Assembly: GCA_003352285.1 (NCBI GenBank)
Contig: QQVN01000004.1
Coordinates: forward strand, 1-64,000
Direction: 5' to 3'
DNA length: 64,000 bases
From: Thermoproteota archaeon
GTDB taxonomy: Archaea > Thermoproteota > Nitrososphaeria > Nitrososphaerales > Nitrosopumilaceae
Position 1 is the stretch's first letter; each line of letters begins with the position of its first letter. Under the pieces are notes generated by a model. The model did not search any database. It saw only the letters and a list, made by a program, of their open reading frames with translations, and was not told the origin of the DNA. Below, piece after piece: positions 45,751-53,735 of this stretch. A program made the translations under genes and the position numbers.

Positions 45751-46962
45751 ATGAGGATTTCCCTAGAATGTAGAGAATGTAAAAAGCACTACGAACCTAC
45801 TTTCAAGTATATTTGTGAAGACTGTTTTGGACCTCTAGATGTAAAATATGATTTTCCCAAAGTCAACAAAGACACATTTTCAAACAGAGAGCATACTTAT
45901 TGGCGTTACTTTGAATTATTACCGATTTTAGAAAAATCAAACATTATCAGTATTGATGCTGGTATGACTCCTCTAGTTAGAGCAGAAAAGCTTGGCAAAG
46001 AACTAGGACTTAACAAACTTTACATAAAAAATGACTCTGTTAACCCTACATTTTCATTTAAAGACAGACCTGCCGGTATTGCAGTATCAAAATCAAAAGA
46101 ATTTGGATTATCTGCAGTTGGCTGCGCATCAACTGGTAATCTAGCTTCTGCTACTGCAGCTCATGCTGCAAAAGGTGGATTTCCATGTCATATTTTTGCA
46201 CCAAGTGACATTGAGATACCAAAGATTGCACAAGCACTATCGTATGGTGCAAACTTTATTGCAGTTGATGGTACATATGATGATGCTAACAGAATTGCAG
46301 CACAAATTGGTGATAGCAAAGGTATTGGAATTGTTAACATCAATATGCGTTCATACTATGTCGAAGGCTCGAAAACACTGGCATATGAAGTTGCAGAACA
46401 ACTAGGTTGGCAGGTACCTGATCAACTAGTGGTTCCAGTAGGTAGCGGTGCAATGCTTAATGCAATATGTAAGGGATTTGAAGAATTACAAAATATTTCA
46501 TTATTGAACAATGTTTCTAACATGCATATGGTTGCTGCACAACCAACAGGTTGCGCGCCGATTGTCACTGCATTTAAGAAAAAAAGCAATGAAGTTACTC
46601 CAGTAGAACAACCTGATACAATCGCAAAAAGTTTGGCAATTGGTGATCCAGGTGATGGCCGTTATGTCCTGAAACGATTGAAACAATACAATGGTTTTGC
46701 AGAAGAATCAAACAACAAAGAAATTCTTGATGCAATACTATTGCTTGCAAAAACTGAAGGAATTTTTACAGAACCTGCTGGTGGCGTGTCTGTTGCGGTA
46801 TTGAAAAAATTAGTAGACGAAGGCAAAATTGATAAAAATGATACTACCATATGTTATGTCACTGGCAATGGATTAAAAGCCACTGAATCACTAATGGAAG
46901 TGTTGCCAAAACCACAAGTAATGCAAGCAGATGTTGCAAAGATTTCCGCGGTAGTAAAGTAG
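45751..46962 (+). CDS. thrC: Threonine synthase
   Basis: 403-aa PLP enzyme converting phosphohomoserine to threonine. N-terminal zinc-ribbon-like CRECKKHY...CEDCFG, then GMTPLVRAEKLGKELG, and PLP Lys in NPTFSFKDRPAG (about residue 108). VPVGSGAMLNA is the phosphate loop. Upstream AT-rich box TTTTTATCAA lies about 24-33 nt before the ATG. Uses the asd branch product. Followed after 1 nt by the MoaD-E1 fusion, so probably co-transcribed. Confidence 0.94.
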   Translation: MRISLECRECKKHYEPTFKYICEDCFGPLDVKYDFPKVNKDTFSNREHTYWRYFELLPILEKSNIISIDAGMTPLVRAEKLGKELGLNKLYIKNDSVNPTFSFKDRPAGIAVSKSKEFGLSAVGCASTGNLASATAAHAAKGGFPCHIFAPSDIEIPKIAQALSYGANFIAVDGTYDDANRIAAQIGDSKGIGIVNINMRSYYVEGSKTLAYEVAEQLGWQVPDQLVVPVGSGAMLNAICKGFEELQNISLLNNVSNMHMVAAQPTGCAPIVTAFKKKSNEVTPVEQPDTIAKSLAIGDPGDGRYVLKRLKQYNGFAEESNNKEILDAILLLAKTEGIFTEPAGGVSVAVLKKLVDEGKIDKNDTTICYVTGNGLKATESLMEVLPKPQVMQADVAKISAVVK

Positions 46963-46963
46963 C

Positions 46964-48304
46964 ATGTCTAGTCTAACATTTACCATTCCTTCAGTACTAA
47001 ACCAAGGTGGGGGAGAAAAAAAAATCGAAATATCTGCAGATACTCTATCTGATGCATTTTCCAAAATTTCCGAGACCATGGGTGATGACTTTAAGCGACG
47101 TATACTAAACGATGATGGAACTCCTCGCTCCCTGATTAACATTTACATCAATGGTAAAAATGCAAAATTCTCAGACGGAATGAACACCACACTAAAGGAT
47201 GGAGATGAGATCTATATCCTACCTGCCGTTGCTGGTGGCTCGGAATTATCAAATGAAGATCTTGATAGATATTCACGACAGGTAATGCTTGAAGAGATAG
47301 GTTACCAAGGACAGATTAAACTTTGTAATGCTAAAGTCTGTGTTGTTGGTGTTGGAGGATTAGGAAATCCAATCACTACTAGACTAGTTGCAATGGGTGT
47401 TGGTAAAATCCGAATAGTTGATAGGGATATAATCGAATTTTCCAATTTGCATCGGCAAACACTATTTGATGAATCTGATGTAGGTGAAATTAAAGTAGAA
47501 GCTGCTGCAAAAAAATTAAAGAAACTTAATTCGGGTGTTAACATTGAAGCATTAGCTGTTTCTGTTAATGATTATAATGCTTCAGAAATTATTGAAGGTT
47601 GTGACATAGTAATTGATGCACTCGATAGTGTCAATGCACGATATGCATTAAACAAAGCCTGCATTGAAAATAACATTCCATTTGTAACTGGTGCAGCTGT
47701 TGGCGTTTCTGGACAAGTATTTACAATACTTCCAAAAGAAACTGCTTGTTATCATTGTATGTTTCCAGCACTCGATGAAGATACCATGCCCACCTGTAGC
47801 ATTGAAGGGGTGCATCCCTCTATACTGTCTATAGTTGGTGGCATTGAAGTTGCAGAAGCCGTAAAAATCCTAATTGGTAAAAAACCAAGCTTATCAAATA
47901 AAATTTTACATATTGATCTAGAAAACTTGGATTTTTCTACCACAAGAACTTTTAGAGCAGAAGAATGTCCTGTATGTGGTTCTGGTAAAAAAGAAGAAAA
48001 AACTAAACAAGTCATTATAATTGAAGAACTTTGTGGACGAAATAGAGGAAAACGTACCTTTTCATTAACTCCTACACAAATGTTTGATATTGATGTCAAA
48101 TCAATTTCAAAGTCTGCAAAAGAAAAAGGATTCCTAGTTGAAAATCAAGGAAACCTTGGACTTTCATTACGAACAAATGATCTCTCTGTCAGCTTTATGA
48201 AGAAAGGCTCTGCAGTGATTGTAGGCACAAAAGATGAAAATGATGCCATTGAATTGTATTCCAGATTAACCGGAAAGAAGATTCCATTAATTGAAAGCAC
48301 GTAA
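46964..48304 (+). CDS. MoaD/ThiS-like domain fused to an E1-like ThiF/MoeB enzyme
   Basis: 446 aa. Residues 1-92 are a beta-grasp ubiquitin-like domain ending in LPAVAGG. Residues about 95-340 are an E1-like adenylyltransferase: DRYSRQVMLEEIGYQGQ, VVGVGGLGNP (Rossmann), DRDIIEFSNLHRQTLF and the putative catalytic Cys in MPTCSIEGVHPS (about 278). Zn pairs are CYHC and CPVC. Residues about 345-446 are an extra domain of unknown type. E1 proteins adenylate a partner's C-terminal GG for sulfur transfer or protein tagging. Here the GG is internal, so it must be cleaved or serve in cis. Confidence 0.88.
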   Translation: MSSLTFTIPSVLNQGGGEKKIEISADTLSDAFSKISETMGDDFKRRILNDDGTPRSLINIYINGKNAKFSDGMNTTLKDGDEIYILPAVAGGSELSNEDLDRYSRQVMLEEIGYQGQIKLCNAKVCVVGVGGLGNPITTRLVAMGVGKIRIVDRDIIEFSNLHRQTLFDESDVGEIKVEAAAKKLKKLNSGVNIEALAVSVNDYNASEIIEGCDIVIDALDSVNARYALNKACIENNIPFVTGAAVGVSGQVFTILPKETACYHCMFPALDEDTMPTCSIEGVHPSILSIVGGIEVAEAVKILIGKKPSLSNKILHIDLENLDFSTTRTFRAEECPVCGSGKKEEKTKQVIIIEELCGRNRGKRTFSLTPTQMFDIDVKSISKSAKEKGFLVENQGNLGLSLRTNDLSVSFMKKGSAVIVGTKDENDAIELYSRLTGKKIPLIEST

Positions 48305-48518: not shown

Positions 48519-51500
48519 ATGAACAACGAGATAGGACGTAAAATAACTAGTCTTACATTAATGACAATTATGATAGCTGGCTCACTGACATTTGCTATTC
48601 CAGGAGTTACTCCTGAAGCATTTGCAGTAGCCACACAAAGCAATCCACACCTCTTCGTTTCCGGTGAAGGACACAACTCACTAAATGAGGTAAGTCCAGG
48701 AAACGTAATTGAGATTGTTGTAATCGACCCACTGATCAGTGACACTGACCAGGGTAAAGGTGAACCAAATGTATCACTCAACGGTAAGAAAGTTAGAATG
48801 GCACAAGCAACTGATGGTGCTTGGTATGCATATGTTGCCGATAGAGTATCTATGCAAAACATGGATGCAGTATTGGGTAACACCAACGCAACAGCACAAG
48901 CCTTAGGACTTGGACTAAACGTCGGTGTATTCTGTTTGAACAGCGCATCAACTCCACTAGGAATTGATTTGTCTGCAACAACAGGTTATGCCGTACCAAG
49001 ATACTTAACATCTACCGGTGGTGCAACCAACAACGGAACTGATGGTACAACTACCCTAGTAGCATGTACAGCTGGTGCAATTCCAAAAGCTAGCAATCTA
49101 GCTGGAAACCCTAATTCTGGCGCAAAAGTAATGAACGTCATCAGAGAGAACGAAACTCTCAACAGTGGCGTTACAGCAACTGGCCCAGGACAAATCAACT
49201 TCCGTCATACTAACTTTTGGCCATTCATTCAACTCTTTGATGTTGCTGAAAACTCAAACATGAATATCGTCTATAACAGAGCAGGTGGTTCTGAACAAGT
49301 TTCACTACTCTTAGATGATGCTGTAGAGTCAAAGCCAGTACTTGACAGAACAAAGTACCCATTGGGTGCAGATGTTATTGTAACAATTACTGACCAAGGA
49401 TTGAATGTTGATCCAACTGATGAAGATACATGGGTATTTGGTACCTCTTCCTCAAACAAGACCATATTCTATGGTGTTTATGATGAAGATGGTGCAGCAA
49501 GAGCTGTTAACACAGTCGCATTGAAAGATGCTTCTGGTATCAAATCACCAACAATGGGTGACCCACACTTTGATGAACTAGTAGCAATCAAGCGTTCCCC
49601 ACAAGGAACAGTTCAAATCGACTTACAAGCTAACGAAGACTATCCAATTACTGTTATCACTGCAACAGGTGCAACCAAAGGTTCAGCCGTAATAGGCACT
49701 GGCGGTCAAATCACCGCTGCAAGCTTCCCAGTAAACTTTGTTGAAACAGGTGGCAACTCTGCAACCTTTGTCAACTATGGTTCTGGTGACAGCAAAGCAA
49801 ATCTGATTATTGCATCAACTGCAAAAAGAGGACAGACATTTGAGATAGAATATGATTCTCCAGGATTTGTTTCAGGTCTAGTCGGACACTTCTTTGCAAC
49901 CATTGATATGGATGGAGCAAGTGTTGGCGATGAATGGAACTCTGGTGAGAGAATCGCAGTTACTTTAACCGATAACGACGCAAACTTGAATGCACTAACA
50001 GATGAGGACTTGGATGTAGACAATGCAGCCGTAAAACTCATCCCAAGCATCAAGATTGGTTCTCCAATTACACTACCAACAACTACAACAGCAAGTGCAA
50101 CTTTAGTAACCGTGAATAACGGAACCAGCTCAAGTGGCCAAGGTGAAACTATTACAACCAGCTCTACAGTTGAGGCATTCAGCCAAAGAGCTAGAACACA
50201 AATTACAACTTGCTTCAACACCACTGCAACATTCAACGCATTTGATGCAAGAAGTTGTAACAACTTTTCACCAAACTTTGCTGTTAACTACACATTCACT
50301 GGCACAACCATGAATACCTTATCTGACTTCTTAAACAACGGAACAAAAAACTCAATTTATCACTACTTTAACTACGATATTAGATCAATTACTGCTGCAA
50401 CAAACACCACTGATATCTTCCACATTCTGATCCAAAACGGAACAGGTGGCGGTTCAGCTGGCAATGTTCCAGTTAACATCACCAAATCGGCCACATCATC
50501 TGCACAAGGTCTAATCAGACTAAATGCTGGTGGTAGCGCAGGAACTGGTGGTGCAGTAGTTGGTGATTCATCCATTGGTGGCACAGGAACTCTAGAAGTA
50601 GCCTTTGTCTTTAACCAAGGAGCAACTACTATCGCAAACTCTACTGCTTTGACTGCAGTTGTTGACTTCTTCAAGTTTGGTACCGACAATGACGGTATCG
50701 ACTTTTCAGATAGATACAACAATGCAATTTACAGAGCAGAGTTAGAGGAGACTGATGATAACACAGGTGTATTTGTAGGTGATATTGAATATATCATGCT
50801 AAACCAATTAAACACTAACCAATCCTCAACATATGAGTCCATTCGAACAATTAGCGACAATCTTCAGATTATCGTTAACGAAGACTTTACTGATGAAGAT
50901 TCAGTGAGAATCAACTATAACGACTTGGGAGCAGACGGTGTAACAACACAGATTGCTGACCAACAAGAAGCACCTTCTCACTCTGGTGTGGTTTCATTTG
51001 ATTCAAACACATACAAGATTGCTGACACAGTAACCGTAACACTTGAAGACCAAGACCTTAACACAGATACAGATACTATCGAGATCTATACCGTAGTTAG
51101 CACAATTACTGATGCAGCCTTCCAGGCAGTCGGTACTGGTGGCTATGGTACAAACTCACAAGGTGATGCATTTGGTAGATTATTGGATATTACATTCGAT
51201 GATGCCAGATGGACAACCAACCCAACCAACGATGGTACTGCAACATGTGCACCAACTGGTGATACAGGTCTAGTAGCAACAGGATTTACTTTAGTTGAGA
51301 CAACTGCTTCTAGCGGTGTCTTTACTGGTGACTTCCAAGTCCCAGCAGACTATTGTAACTCTGATACTACAACTGCAAGCGTAACAGGTACTGATATGGA
51401 AGTTAACTATGTTGATTACAGAGACGCATCCGGTGAGATAATCGAAGTAGGAGATTCTGCAGGAATCAGAGCCAACACTGGTTCAGTCAGCCTAGATAGA

Positions 51501-53735
51501 ACTGTTTACCCAGTTCCATTTGGTATTCCAGCAGACTTTACTGTTCCAACAGGAACATCTGACACTAACGAATTCTCAATATTCCCAATTCATGCAACAG
51601 GAGTTTCTAGTTTGGCTACACAGTCACCTAACTCTTCTGCTAGCCCAGCTGCAACACCAATTACAAAGGCTGGAGCATTCTTGAACAAGGGTGACTTGAC
51701 AATTCACGTCAGAGTAAACGATCCAGACTTTGATATCTCAGCAAGCGGTGAAGACAAAATCCAACAGTCAGTCTCAGGCAAATCTGGCCCTGTGAAAATC
51801 ACAATGTCCAGAGCAGCCGAAGTATTGACCTTAGCAACTGCTGGTAACGTAACTGCCCAACCAGGTAAGATCACAACTGGTAACACACCAGTTAGAGTTG
51901 ATACTACAGCTTGGAATGGCCCAGAATTGCGAACCAGTGAACTAGGACCAATTACTGAGATTGCACCAGACGCAGGCATCTTTGAGCTAGACTTTGTCAT
52001 CAGATACACTGATGGCCCAGACAGCACAATTTGTCCAACAACCTCCTCATTTAAGCACCAAACAAACGGTACTAGAGGCGGCGAGTCTATGAGATTTGCA
52101 ACTGCATCCGCAGCAGGACAGAACTATTGTATCTTACAAGGTGATATCATCACTGTACAATACACTGACCCAACTGATGCATCCGGTGATCCAAACACTG
52201 TAACCGATTCTGCTACCTTTGACCTTAGAAATGGTGTATTACAATCTGACAAGTCTGTTTACATTATTGGTTCTGATATGATCTTAACCGTAATTGAACC
52301 AGACTGGGACCTCGACAATGATGTTGCTGAAACCTATGATCTTGATCTCATTGAATGGGATTCAGACGCTGCAACCCTATCCATGGGTAATGCAGGTGGC
52401 TCAGCAGCTTCCTTTGATCCAGAACCATCTGACTTTAGAGAAACAGGTGACTCTACTGGTATCTTCCAGATAGTCATCGAGATTCCTGAAATCCTAGCTG
52501 GCGACAGATTAGAGAGAGGTGAAGAGATTGTACTAGAATATACTGACTGGGGACCATCTGGTGCAGACTATGTTGGACAAGAAGATGAGGACATTAACTT
52601 GACCGTCTTTACATCCAACTTTGGCGCAACAGTAGAACTTGACCAGAAAGTTTACACTTGGACTGATAAAGTATACATTACCATCGTCGCACCTGATCAC
52701 AACTTCGACAGCGACTTGATTGATGAAATTGGTGAAAAAGCCACAGACCCAATCAAGGTATCTACAAGAGGCAACTCTATTGATAGATACAGATTAGTCG
52801 AGACAGGTACTGACACAGGTATCTTCACAGGTGAAGTTATCTTAACCGGCTTCGTTCACGATGCCGATGGTGATGGCACTAACGATATTACCGCTCCAGC
52901 AAAGTCATCTGCAGGTGCAGGACCAACTGATGGATTCCTCCCAGCAGACGATGATGATGGTATTACAGTATCCTTTGAGTTCTCAGAGGATGAGACTGTA
53001 GTCGGATCAGCATTGATCAGATGGAATATCGGTGAAGTTCAGTGGCTTGAAGCAAGCTACCCAGCAAAAGGTACAGGTGTTGTACGCGTAGTTGACCCAG
53101 ACATGAACTTGGATCCAGAAGCAGTCGACAACTTTGATGTTGACGTCTGGTCTGACTCCGACGCTGGTGGTATTGACTTGACTGTAACTGAAACTAATGA
53201 GGCAACTGGAATATTCGAGGGAACAGTGTTCTTCACTACTACCGATGAATCATCCGGTCACAGACTCAGAGTATCAGAAGGTGACACAATCACCGCAGAA
53301 TATGAGGACAATACACTACCTGATCCATACACAACTGCAGACGAACTTGATATCACAGGCACTTCCATCATCGGAACAATTGTACCACCTCTAGAGAGAG
53401 CACCAGCTGCTAACGCTAGAGTTGTTGACGCCTTTGGCAATGCACTATCTAGTGTATCCGTAGACCAACAAGTACAAGTAACCGCTGATTTGGCAAACGG
53501 CCAAGATAGAGAGCAATCATTTGCATACATTGTACAGATTCAGGATGGTAACGGCGTAACAGTTTCACTGTCATGGATTGAAGGATCCCTAACTGCTGGA
53601 CAATCATTTAGTCCATCACAGTCTTGGACCCCAAGTGCATCCGGAACATATGAAGCAACAATCTTCGTATGGGAGAGCATTACCAATCCAACAGCATTGT
53701 CACCTCCACAAACACTATCAATCACTGTAAATTAA
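48519..53735 (+). CDS. Large S-layer protein
   Basis: 1738 aa. Signal peptide at about 8-36 (SLTLMTIMIAGSLTFAIPG...EAFA). The body is repeated beta-sandwich domains with a recurring cadence of a strand like VTVTLEDQDLNTDTDT and an acidic D-x-D/N loop, then ETASSGVFTGDF or ETGDSTGIFQ. The final domain (about 1625-1738) has QVTADLANGQDREQSFAYIV. Length and composition match the major cell-envelope protein of Nitrosopumilus-type archaea. Many Asp residues could bind Ca or attract ammonium (inference). Strong promoter and T-tract terminator fit high expression. No C-terminal membrane helix is seen. Confidence 0.9.
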   Translation: MNNEIGRKITSLTLMTIMIAGSLTFAIPGVTPEAFAVATQSNPHLFVSGEGHNSLNEVSPGNVIEIVVIDPLISDTDQGKGEPNVSLNGKKVRMAQATDGAWYAYVADRVSMQNMDAVLGNTNATAQALGLGLNVGVFCLNSASTPLGIDLSATTGYAVPRYLTSTGGATNNGTDGTTTLVACTAGAIPKASNLAGNPNSGAKVMNVIRENETLNSGVTATGPGQINFRHTNFWPFIQLFDVAENSNMNIVYNRAGGSEQVSLLLDDAVESKPVLDRTKYPLGADVIVTITDQGLNVDPTDEDTWVFGTSSSNKTIFYGVYDEDGAARAVNTVALKDASGIKSPTMGDPHFDELVAIKRSPQGTVQIDLQANEDYPITVITATGATKGSAVIGTGGQITAASFPVNFVETGGNSATFVNYGSGDSKANLIIASTAKRGQTFEIEYDSPGFVSGLVGHFFATIDMDGASVGDEWNSGERIAVTLTDNDANLNALTDEDLDVDNAAVKLIPSIKIGSPITLPTTTTASATLVTVNNGTSSSGQGETITTSSTVEAFSQRARTQITTCFNTTATFNAFDARSCNNFSPNFAVNYTFTGTTMNTLSDFLNNGTKNSIYHYFNYDIRSITAATNTTDIFHILIQNGTGGGSAGNVPVNITKSATSSAQGLIRLNAGGSAGTGGAVVGDSSIGGTGTLEVAFVFNQGATTIANSTALTAVVDFFKFGTDNDGIDFSDRYNNAIYRAELEETDDNTGVFVGDIEYIMLNQLNTNQSSTYESIRTISDNLQIIVNEDFTDEDSVRINYNDLGADGVTTQIADQQEAPSHSGVVSFDSNTYKIADTVTVTLEDQDLNTDTDTIEIYTVVSTITDAAFQAVGTGGYGTNSQGDAFGRLLDITFDDARWTTNPTNDGTATCAPTGDTGLVATGFTLVETTASSGVFTGDFQVPADYCNSDTTTASVTGTDMEVNYVDYRDASGEIIEVGDSAGIRANTGSVSLDRTVYPVPFGIPADFTVPTGTSDTNEFSIFPIHATGVSSLATQSPNSSASPAATPITKAGAFLNKGDLTIHVRVNDPDFDISASGEDKIQQSVSGKSGPVKITMSRAAEVLTLATAGNVTAQPGKITTGNTPVRVDTTAWNGPELRTSELGPITEIAPDAGIFELDFVIRYTDGPDSTICPTTSSFKHQTNGTRGGESMRFATASAAGQNYCILQGDIITVQYTDPTDASGDPNTVTDSATFDLRNGVLQSDKSVYIIGSDMILTVIEPDWDLDNDVAETYDLDLIEWDSDAATLSMGNAGGSAASFDPEPSDFRETGDSTGIFQIVIEIPEILAGDRLERGEEIVLEYTDWGPSGADYVGQEDEDINLTVFTSNFGATVELDQKVYTWTDKVYITIVAPDHNFDSDLIDEIGEKATDPIKVSTRGNSIDRYRLVETGTDTGIFTGEVILTGFVHDADGDGTNDITAPAKSSAGAGPTDGFLPADDDDGITVSFEFSEDETVVGSALIRWNIGEVQWLEASYPAKGTGVVRVVDPDMNLDPEAVDNFDVDVWSDSDAGGIDLTVTETNEATGIFEGTVFFTTTDESSGHRLRVSEGDTITAEYEDNTLPDPYTTADELDITGTSIIGTIVPPLERAPAANARVVDAFGNALSSVSVDQQVQVTADLANGQDREQSFAYIVQIQDGNGVTVSLSWIEGSLTAGQSFSPSQSWTPSASGTYEATIFVWESITNPTALSPPQTLSITVN

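Follow-up and report, generated by a model that had tools for sequence, protein, structure and literature searches.

A ubiquitin-like domain fused to its E1 in Nitrosopumilaceae as a probable precursor of a sulfur carrier for homocysteine synthesis

The window, a stretch of 64,000 nucleotides from a Nitrosopumilus-like archaeon of the Nitrosopumilaceae (source assembly of 1.69 Mb in 5 contigs), encodes at 46964-48304 on the forward strand a 446-aa open reading frame in which a ubiquitin-like domain (Ubl) is joined to an E1 enzyme, directly behind the gene of a threonine synthase (ThrC) homologue. Most likely the fusion serves as a thiocarboxylate carrier from which the neighboring ThrC makes homocysteine; this would assign a new function to a fusion already known. 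The architecture is not new, because the Ubl-E1-TBP fusion of Thaumarchaeota is already in print (Makarova and Koonin 2010, PMC2948915), and a 2024 survey of archaeal fusions, in its available text, finds 61 of 98 Thaumarchaeota to carry a MoaD-MoeB fusion, which it files under cofactor synthesis (PMC11237513). The window gene shares both architecture and lineage with these and is a member of the group, as it has the Ubl, the E1 core and the TBP-like domain in one chain, the last by a match that is weak in E-value. Unlike here, the passages on Ubl-E1-TBP in the two papers draw no link to ThrC or methionine, and the term threonine synthase is absent from the main text of PMC2948915. Nor was any statement on a ThrC-Ubl-E1 link or a methionine role in Nitrososphaeria found in the literature, in a search that left subscription journals mostly outside; a search on methionine in Nitrosopumilus returned nothing relevant. 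The features are as follows, all on the forward strand.

45751-46962 (+): ThrC homologue, 403 aa, PLP fold, proposed MetM-like homocysteine synthase; TIGR00260 and PRK08197 above their cut-offs
46964-48304 (+): Ubl-E1-TBP fusion gene, entire, 446 aa; Pfam and NCBIfam matches
46964-47239 (+): ubiquitin-like sulfur-carrier domain, residues 1-92; Pfam ThiS, best solved relatives 3dwg_C and 4n6e_B
47234-47239 (+): Gly91-Gly92 codons, proposed cleavage site (GG/S); invariant in fused relatives and the C-terminus of nine of ten free ThrC-linked orthologues
47240-47266 (+): linker, residues 93-101, variable in length and letters; within a region of pLDDT <50 (residues 88-110)
47270-47971 (+): E1/ThiF adenylating domain, residues 103-336; Pfam ThiF, invariant columns, fold matches to ThiF, MoeB and Uba4
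48014-48271 (+): TBP-like C-terminal domain, residues 351-436; structure model and fold search, so named in PMC2948915

The original prediction, a Ubl that ends in LPAVAGG and runs straight into an E1, holds: Pfam ThiS covers residues 27-92 (E 2.8e-9) and Pfam ThiF residues 103-336 (E 9e-76), with LPAVAGG ending at residue 92 and a short linker in between. Cys278 of the E1 domain is invariant across the alignment and is presumably the catalytic residue. An AlphaFold2 model of the protein, built from 24 sequences, has a mean pLDDT of 79 that falls below 50 over residues 88-110, on both sides of Gly91-Gly92, and a fold search with it retrieved ThiF, MoeB and Uba4. The same prediction saw no clear match in the last 100 or so residues, which proved wrong, as the NCBIfam model PRK12475 aligns end to end with residues 101-437, albeit under its cut-off, and residues 343-446 modeled alone (pLDDT 85.8) retrieved chiefly TATA-binding-protein structures, with a probability of up to 0.96 and an E-value of only about 0.1. 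On this model the C-terminal domain is TBP-like, by a match that is weak in E-value and that agrees with the published name (PMC2948915). The closest named locus is that of Nitrosopumilus sp. b1 (96% identical), and the protein is matched in 238 of 300 Nitrososphaeria genomes at E <= 1e-10, a count that takes in E1 genes without a Ubl.

The internal Gly-Gly is most likely a processing site, a reading that comes from its pattern of conservation. LPAVAGGS is identical in 32 of the 32 Ubl-containing named relatives and is thus not a chance motif, and all 49 further fused loci carry [LIVM]LPAV[AS]GG (the two sets share some genomes). The linker behind it measures from 9 to >40 residues across the fused relatives, and its letters vary too. 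Ten Ubls linked to ThrC are free proteins (L087, L088, L090, L091, L092, L094, L096, L099, L103 and L115), nine of which stop exactly after Gly-Gly; the tenth, L090 of genome G066, has eight extra residues past it. L115, from genome G141 of the window's own family, pairs ThrC with a Ubl that ends LPAVAGG-stop and has its E1 on another contig. A Gly-Gly that stays constant as the linker drifts, together with free forms that end there, is what one would expect of a Gly92 that has to end up as a C-terminus.

A free Ubl of archaeon B6 (L046) bears a two-residue LK tail after Gly-Gly, and both this protein and L090 are candidate precursors that would need trimming as well. The idea that Ser93 arose from a mutated stop codon was rejected: all 32 named loci encode it by TCN, yet elsewhere the position holds Ala, Thr, Gln, Glu or a serine encoded by AGY.

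Carriers joined through an internal Gly-Gly to a downstream protein, and cut after it, are known from M. tuberculosis MoaX and the Deinococcus MoaD-MoaE fusion. According to the available text of the two reports, MoaX cleavage falls between Gly82 and Ser83 and is needed for activity (PMC4326299), and MoaD-MoaE is cut by DRJAMM, a Deinococcus JAMM protein (PMC8832034); the fusion partner in these cases is MoaE, not an E1.

Two ThiS-fold domains occur in the window genome, and each is followed by another domain. The second lies at 985-1758 of L004, on the reverse strand (about 277572-278345 of contig C5), where a Ubl with an internal HGG-S is joined to the KEOPS subunit Cgi121, a fusion known since 2010 (PMC2948915); if the Ubl-E1 fusion is cut, Ubl-Cgi121 may be cut too. 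The search for separate SAMP or MoaD proteins that had been proposed accordingly yielded no free Ubl in this genome, whereas the companion search for JAMM proteases yielded two Prok-JAB (JAMM-type) proteins, both with HSHP...D motifs, encoded at 139335-139742 of contig C5 and 356718-357116 of contig C3. These results bear on the two branches of the original prediction. Release of the modifier by a protease gains from them, since unfused orthologues at the same place in the operon stop at Gly-Gly, the Gly-Gly is kept as the linker drifts and two JAMM proteins are at hand. The case for a regulatory or structural copy is poor: the only other ThiS-fold match is itself fused, to Cgi121, and no free Ubl was found for it to be a copy of. 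In its strongest form the latter branch would have the fusion never cut, the Ubl being an integral part, for docking or regulation, of an E1 that serves Ubl-Cgi121. The fusion is indeed stable across families f1 and f3, and no protease is known to cut it; however, a purely structural domain need not hold LPAVAGG fixed over a drifting linker, the free orthologues end at Gly-Gly and the other Ubl is itself a fusion with an internal HGG, all of which make an uncut protein unlikely. As a separate observation, at locus L106 (genome G032) an E1 gene that has no ThrC beside it is immediately preceded by Ubl-Cgi121, a second type of Ubl/E1 neighborhood in the class.

Processing of the fusion by a protease, plausibly a JAMM protein, is the preferred reading. 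The JAMM genes of the window genome are unlinked to the operon, and one of them is desampylase-like. Of the 300 genomes searched in the class, 281 have Prok-JAB; it was unmatched in five of five f7 genomes, where release of homocysteine would therefore need another route; the three f7 genomes with the operon that were examined have an unfused Ubl. JAMM as a marker of the fusion is suggestive at most, as some unfused and E1-lacking genomes have JAMM and the fused genome G283, which is 81% complete, has none.

The window genome has one E1 with a full match; a second PF00899 match, under the cut-off, sits within an open reading frame that we read as malic-enzyme-like. A single full E1, which would then serve both Ubls, the desampylase-like JAMM and a match of the SAMP1 model to residues 17-92 would all suit a SAMP- or Urm1-like modifier, released to be conjugated to proteins or to act as a sulfur donor in tRNA thiolation. 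This possibility has little to recommend it overall, given that the SAMP1 equivalog NF041918 scores 52.4 bits on the Ubl domain, under its cut-off of 60, that no conserved link to tRNA-thiolation genes was seen in the loci examined, and that the association with ThrC would be left unexplained.

This association, overlooked in the original prediction, makes amino-acid sulfur transfer a likelier function than protein conjugation. The ThrC homologue is the first gene of the pair and ends one base ahead of the start codon of the fusion. Of 33 named loci, 32 have it immediately upstream, with genes farther out varying, and the sole miss (L043) is a contig end that falls inside the gene; in other genera and families it is upstream in all of 18 fused loci. 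Among 26 deeper or odd genomes with 30 E1 loci, ThrC is alongside in 13, and no ThrC was found in the stretch covered for the other 17. Deeper families of Nitrososphaeria have a gene each for ThrC, Ubl and E1, and in such split-gene genomes ThrC and the Ubl remain paired, once with the E1 on a different contig. The window genome holds a second ThrC homologue (455306-456649 of contig C3), with 27% identity between the two, so that the Ubl-adjacent one need not be the threonine synthase.

The same neighborhood bears on the published filing of the fusion (PMC11237513, in the part available), by which it would be a MoaD-MoeB fusion of molybdenum cofactor synthesis with a carrier that passes sulfur to MoaE. 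This assignment agrees with the NCBIfam model moaD_arch, which matches residues 17-92 above its cut-off, as SAMP1 does below. Nevertheless, it appears improbable, as the conserved neighbor is ThrC amid his genes, with no moa or moe genes in the flanks of the loci examined. Moreover, the best solved relatives of the Ubl are 3dwg_C (E 9.4e-14; chain titled cfp10A), which we take to be CysO, and 4n6e_B, and MoaD and a SAMP1 homologue gave weaker E-values than the CysO structures in the structure-database comparison.

A route to methionine through MetM and MetO has reportedly been described by Hasebe et al. in 2024. As given in the available text of PMC12172450, Streptomyces MetM is a homocysteine synthase and a homologue of ThrC that is 51.6% identical to Microcystis ThrC (from Hasebe et al. 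2024), metM has a SAM riboswitch upstream, a metO-like gene annotated as a sulfur carrier adjoins Microcystis thrC, and Microcystis ThrC seems not to function fully as MetM in the cell. The window set resembles this system, as far as that text describes it, in that a ThrC homologue stands beside a sulfur-carrier gene and a SAM riboswitch precedes the pair in a bacterial relative; it differs in being archaeal, in the fusion of the carrier to E1, in the lack of a riboswitch, none having been found in the window, and in an activity that is only predicted.

The bacterial relative came from a search for ThrC in a plasmid collection that includes an 11.85-Mb record of Nonomuraea gerenzanensis, whose ThrC is the best match there (46% identical to the window ThrC; the next reaches 36%). 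It is followed directly by a 91-aa Ubl ending IIPAVAGG-stop, the same order as in the window, and is preceded directly on its 5' side by a SAM riboswitch (RF00162, 68.7 bits, E 3.3e-15, gathering score 44.4). Adjacency was controlled with L141-L146, which hold six ThrC homologues of 32-36% identity. None of these adjoins a Ubl; L141 does have a Ubl, about 7 kb from ThrC, within a CysM/M67 cluster. Further support was provided by a tree in which 18 Ubl-adjacent ThrCs (17 archaeal and the one from Nonomuraea) fall together on one side of a branch, whose support is 93/79 when a distant outgroup is included and 100/99 when it is left out; the reference for MetM in this tree is the riboswitch-bearing Nonomuraea ThrC, in place of S. 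albulus MetM itself. As an aside, L141 is the Aliarcobacter plasmid pACIB, on which a CysK/CysM-like gene, an M67 peptidase, a MoaD/ThiS carrier and an unannotated E1 are found near an encapsulin with cysteine desulfurase cargo.

On the same Nonomuraea record, a further Ubl occurs in a JAMM-Ubl-CysK/CysM-like arrangement, which is the CysO layout and bears on whether the window carrier serves cysteine instead. The mycobacterial CysO/CysM/Mec+ system with MoeZ, in which JAMM release is established, resembles the window set in a carrier ending ILPAVAGG, a PLP enzyme of the same superfamily and an E1 of the MoeB/ThiF kind, and differs in that CysO is free, its partner is CysM and the product is cysteine (PMC3227635, in its available text). 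The Ubl of the window is CysO-like and a CysK/CysM-family protein (L009) is encoded in the genome, which it might serve with the ThrC neighbor being incidental. The odds are nonetheless poor for this view: the constant neighbor is ThrC and not CysM, even for stand-alone Ubl genes, the CysK-like and JAMM genes of the window genome lie on other contigs, and Nonomuraea keeps the two layouts as separate operons, of which the window ThrC belongs with the riboswitch-bearing one. Similarity of the Ubl was rejected as proof of a MetO, since its identity of 34% to the MetO-like carrier of Nonomuraea versus 37% to the CysO-like one, and its structural relatives, do not discriminate MetO from CysO. As the Ubl is no nearer to the MetO-like carrier than to the CysO-like one, the choice between methionine and cysteine is decided by ThrC and the operon, not by the Ubl.

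Taken with the ThrC partner, the fusion is probably the precursor of a MetO/CysO-like carrier that is cut between Gly-Gly and Ser, charged by its own E1 and used by a MetM-like homocysteine synthase. As we infer it, the carrier would be produced as one chain with its E1 and then cut after Gly92 by a protease, for which the two JAMM proteins encoded in the genome are the most plausible candidates. The freed E1 would adenylate the C-terminal glycine of the carrier and a thiocarboxylate would form, which the ThrC homologue would use as the sulfur donor to convert O-phosphohomoserine into homocysteine. The ThrC-Ubl-E1 set would then be an archaeal counterpart of MetM/MetO.

Neither PF01053 (MetB/MetC/MetY/MetZ family) nor PF01837 (HcyBio) has a match above its cut-off in the window genome, from which MetE is also absent; a cobalamin-dependent MetH is expected in this phylum. 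With both families unmatched, the operon is a concrete and testable candidate for the methionine synthesis of ammonia oxidizers, and if the reading is true the fusion moves from molybdenum cofactor synthesis, where it stands in print, to amino-acid synthesis. A bolder and rather doubtful extension is that Nitrososphaeria, marine ammonia oxidizers included, convert O-phosphohomoserine to homocysteine by way of a thiocarboxylated carrier born as a polyprotein with its E1, and that one JAMM both matures this carrier (GG/S) and releases homocysteine from the adduct; a deubiquitinase-type enzyme would then be a step of methionine synthesis. The free, tailed and fused carriers also form a natural series for studying how ubiquitin-like precursors are processed.

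The fusion is unmatched in 62 genomes, and ThrC was compared for 20 listed of these. In 16 of the 20 there is only a ThrC match of paralogue strength (best E about 1e-23 to 1e-27), and 11 of the 16 also lack HisI, which is encoded upstream of ThrC. In four of the five hisI-bearing genomes without the operon (L135-L138) the contig ends 80-546 bases behind hisI, and only G067 carries other sequence there. Co-loss of ThrC and Ubl-E1 was therefore rejected, and because the joint absence mostly reflects contig breaks it is unusable as evidence. Something in the region directly behind hisI breaks assemblies. Behind the operon of the window, at 48519-53735 on the forward strand, lies the gene of a secreted-looking, repeat-rich protein of 1738 aa that we read as surface-layer-like; its relatives, at identities of about 27 to 92%, vary far more than the operon does.
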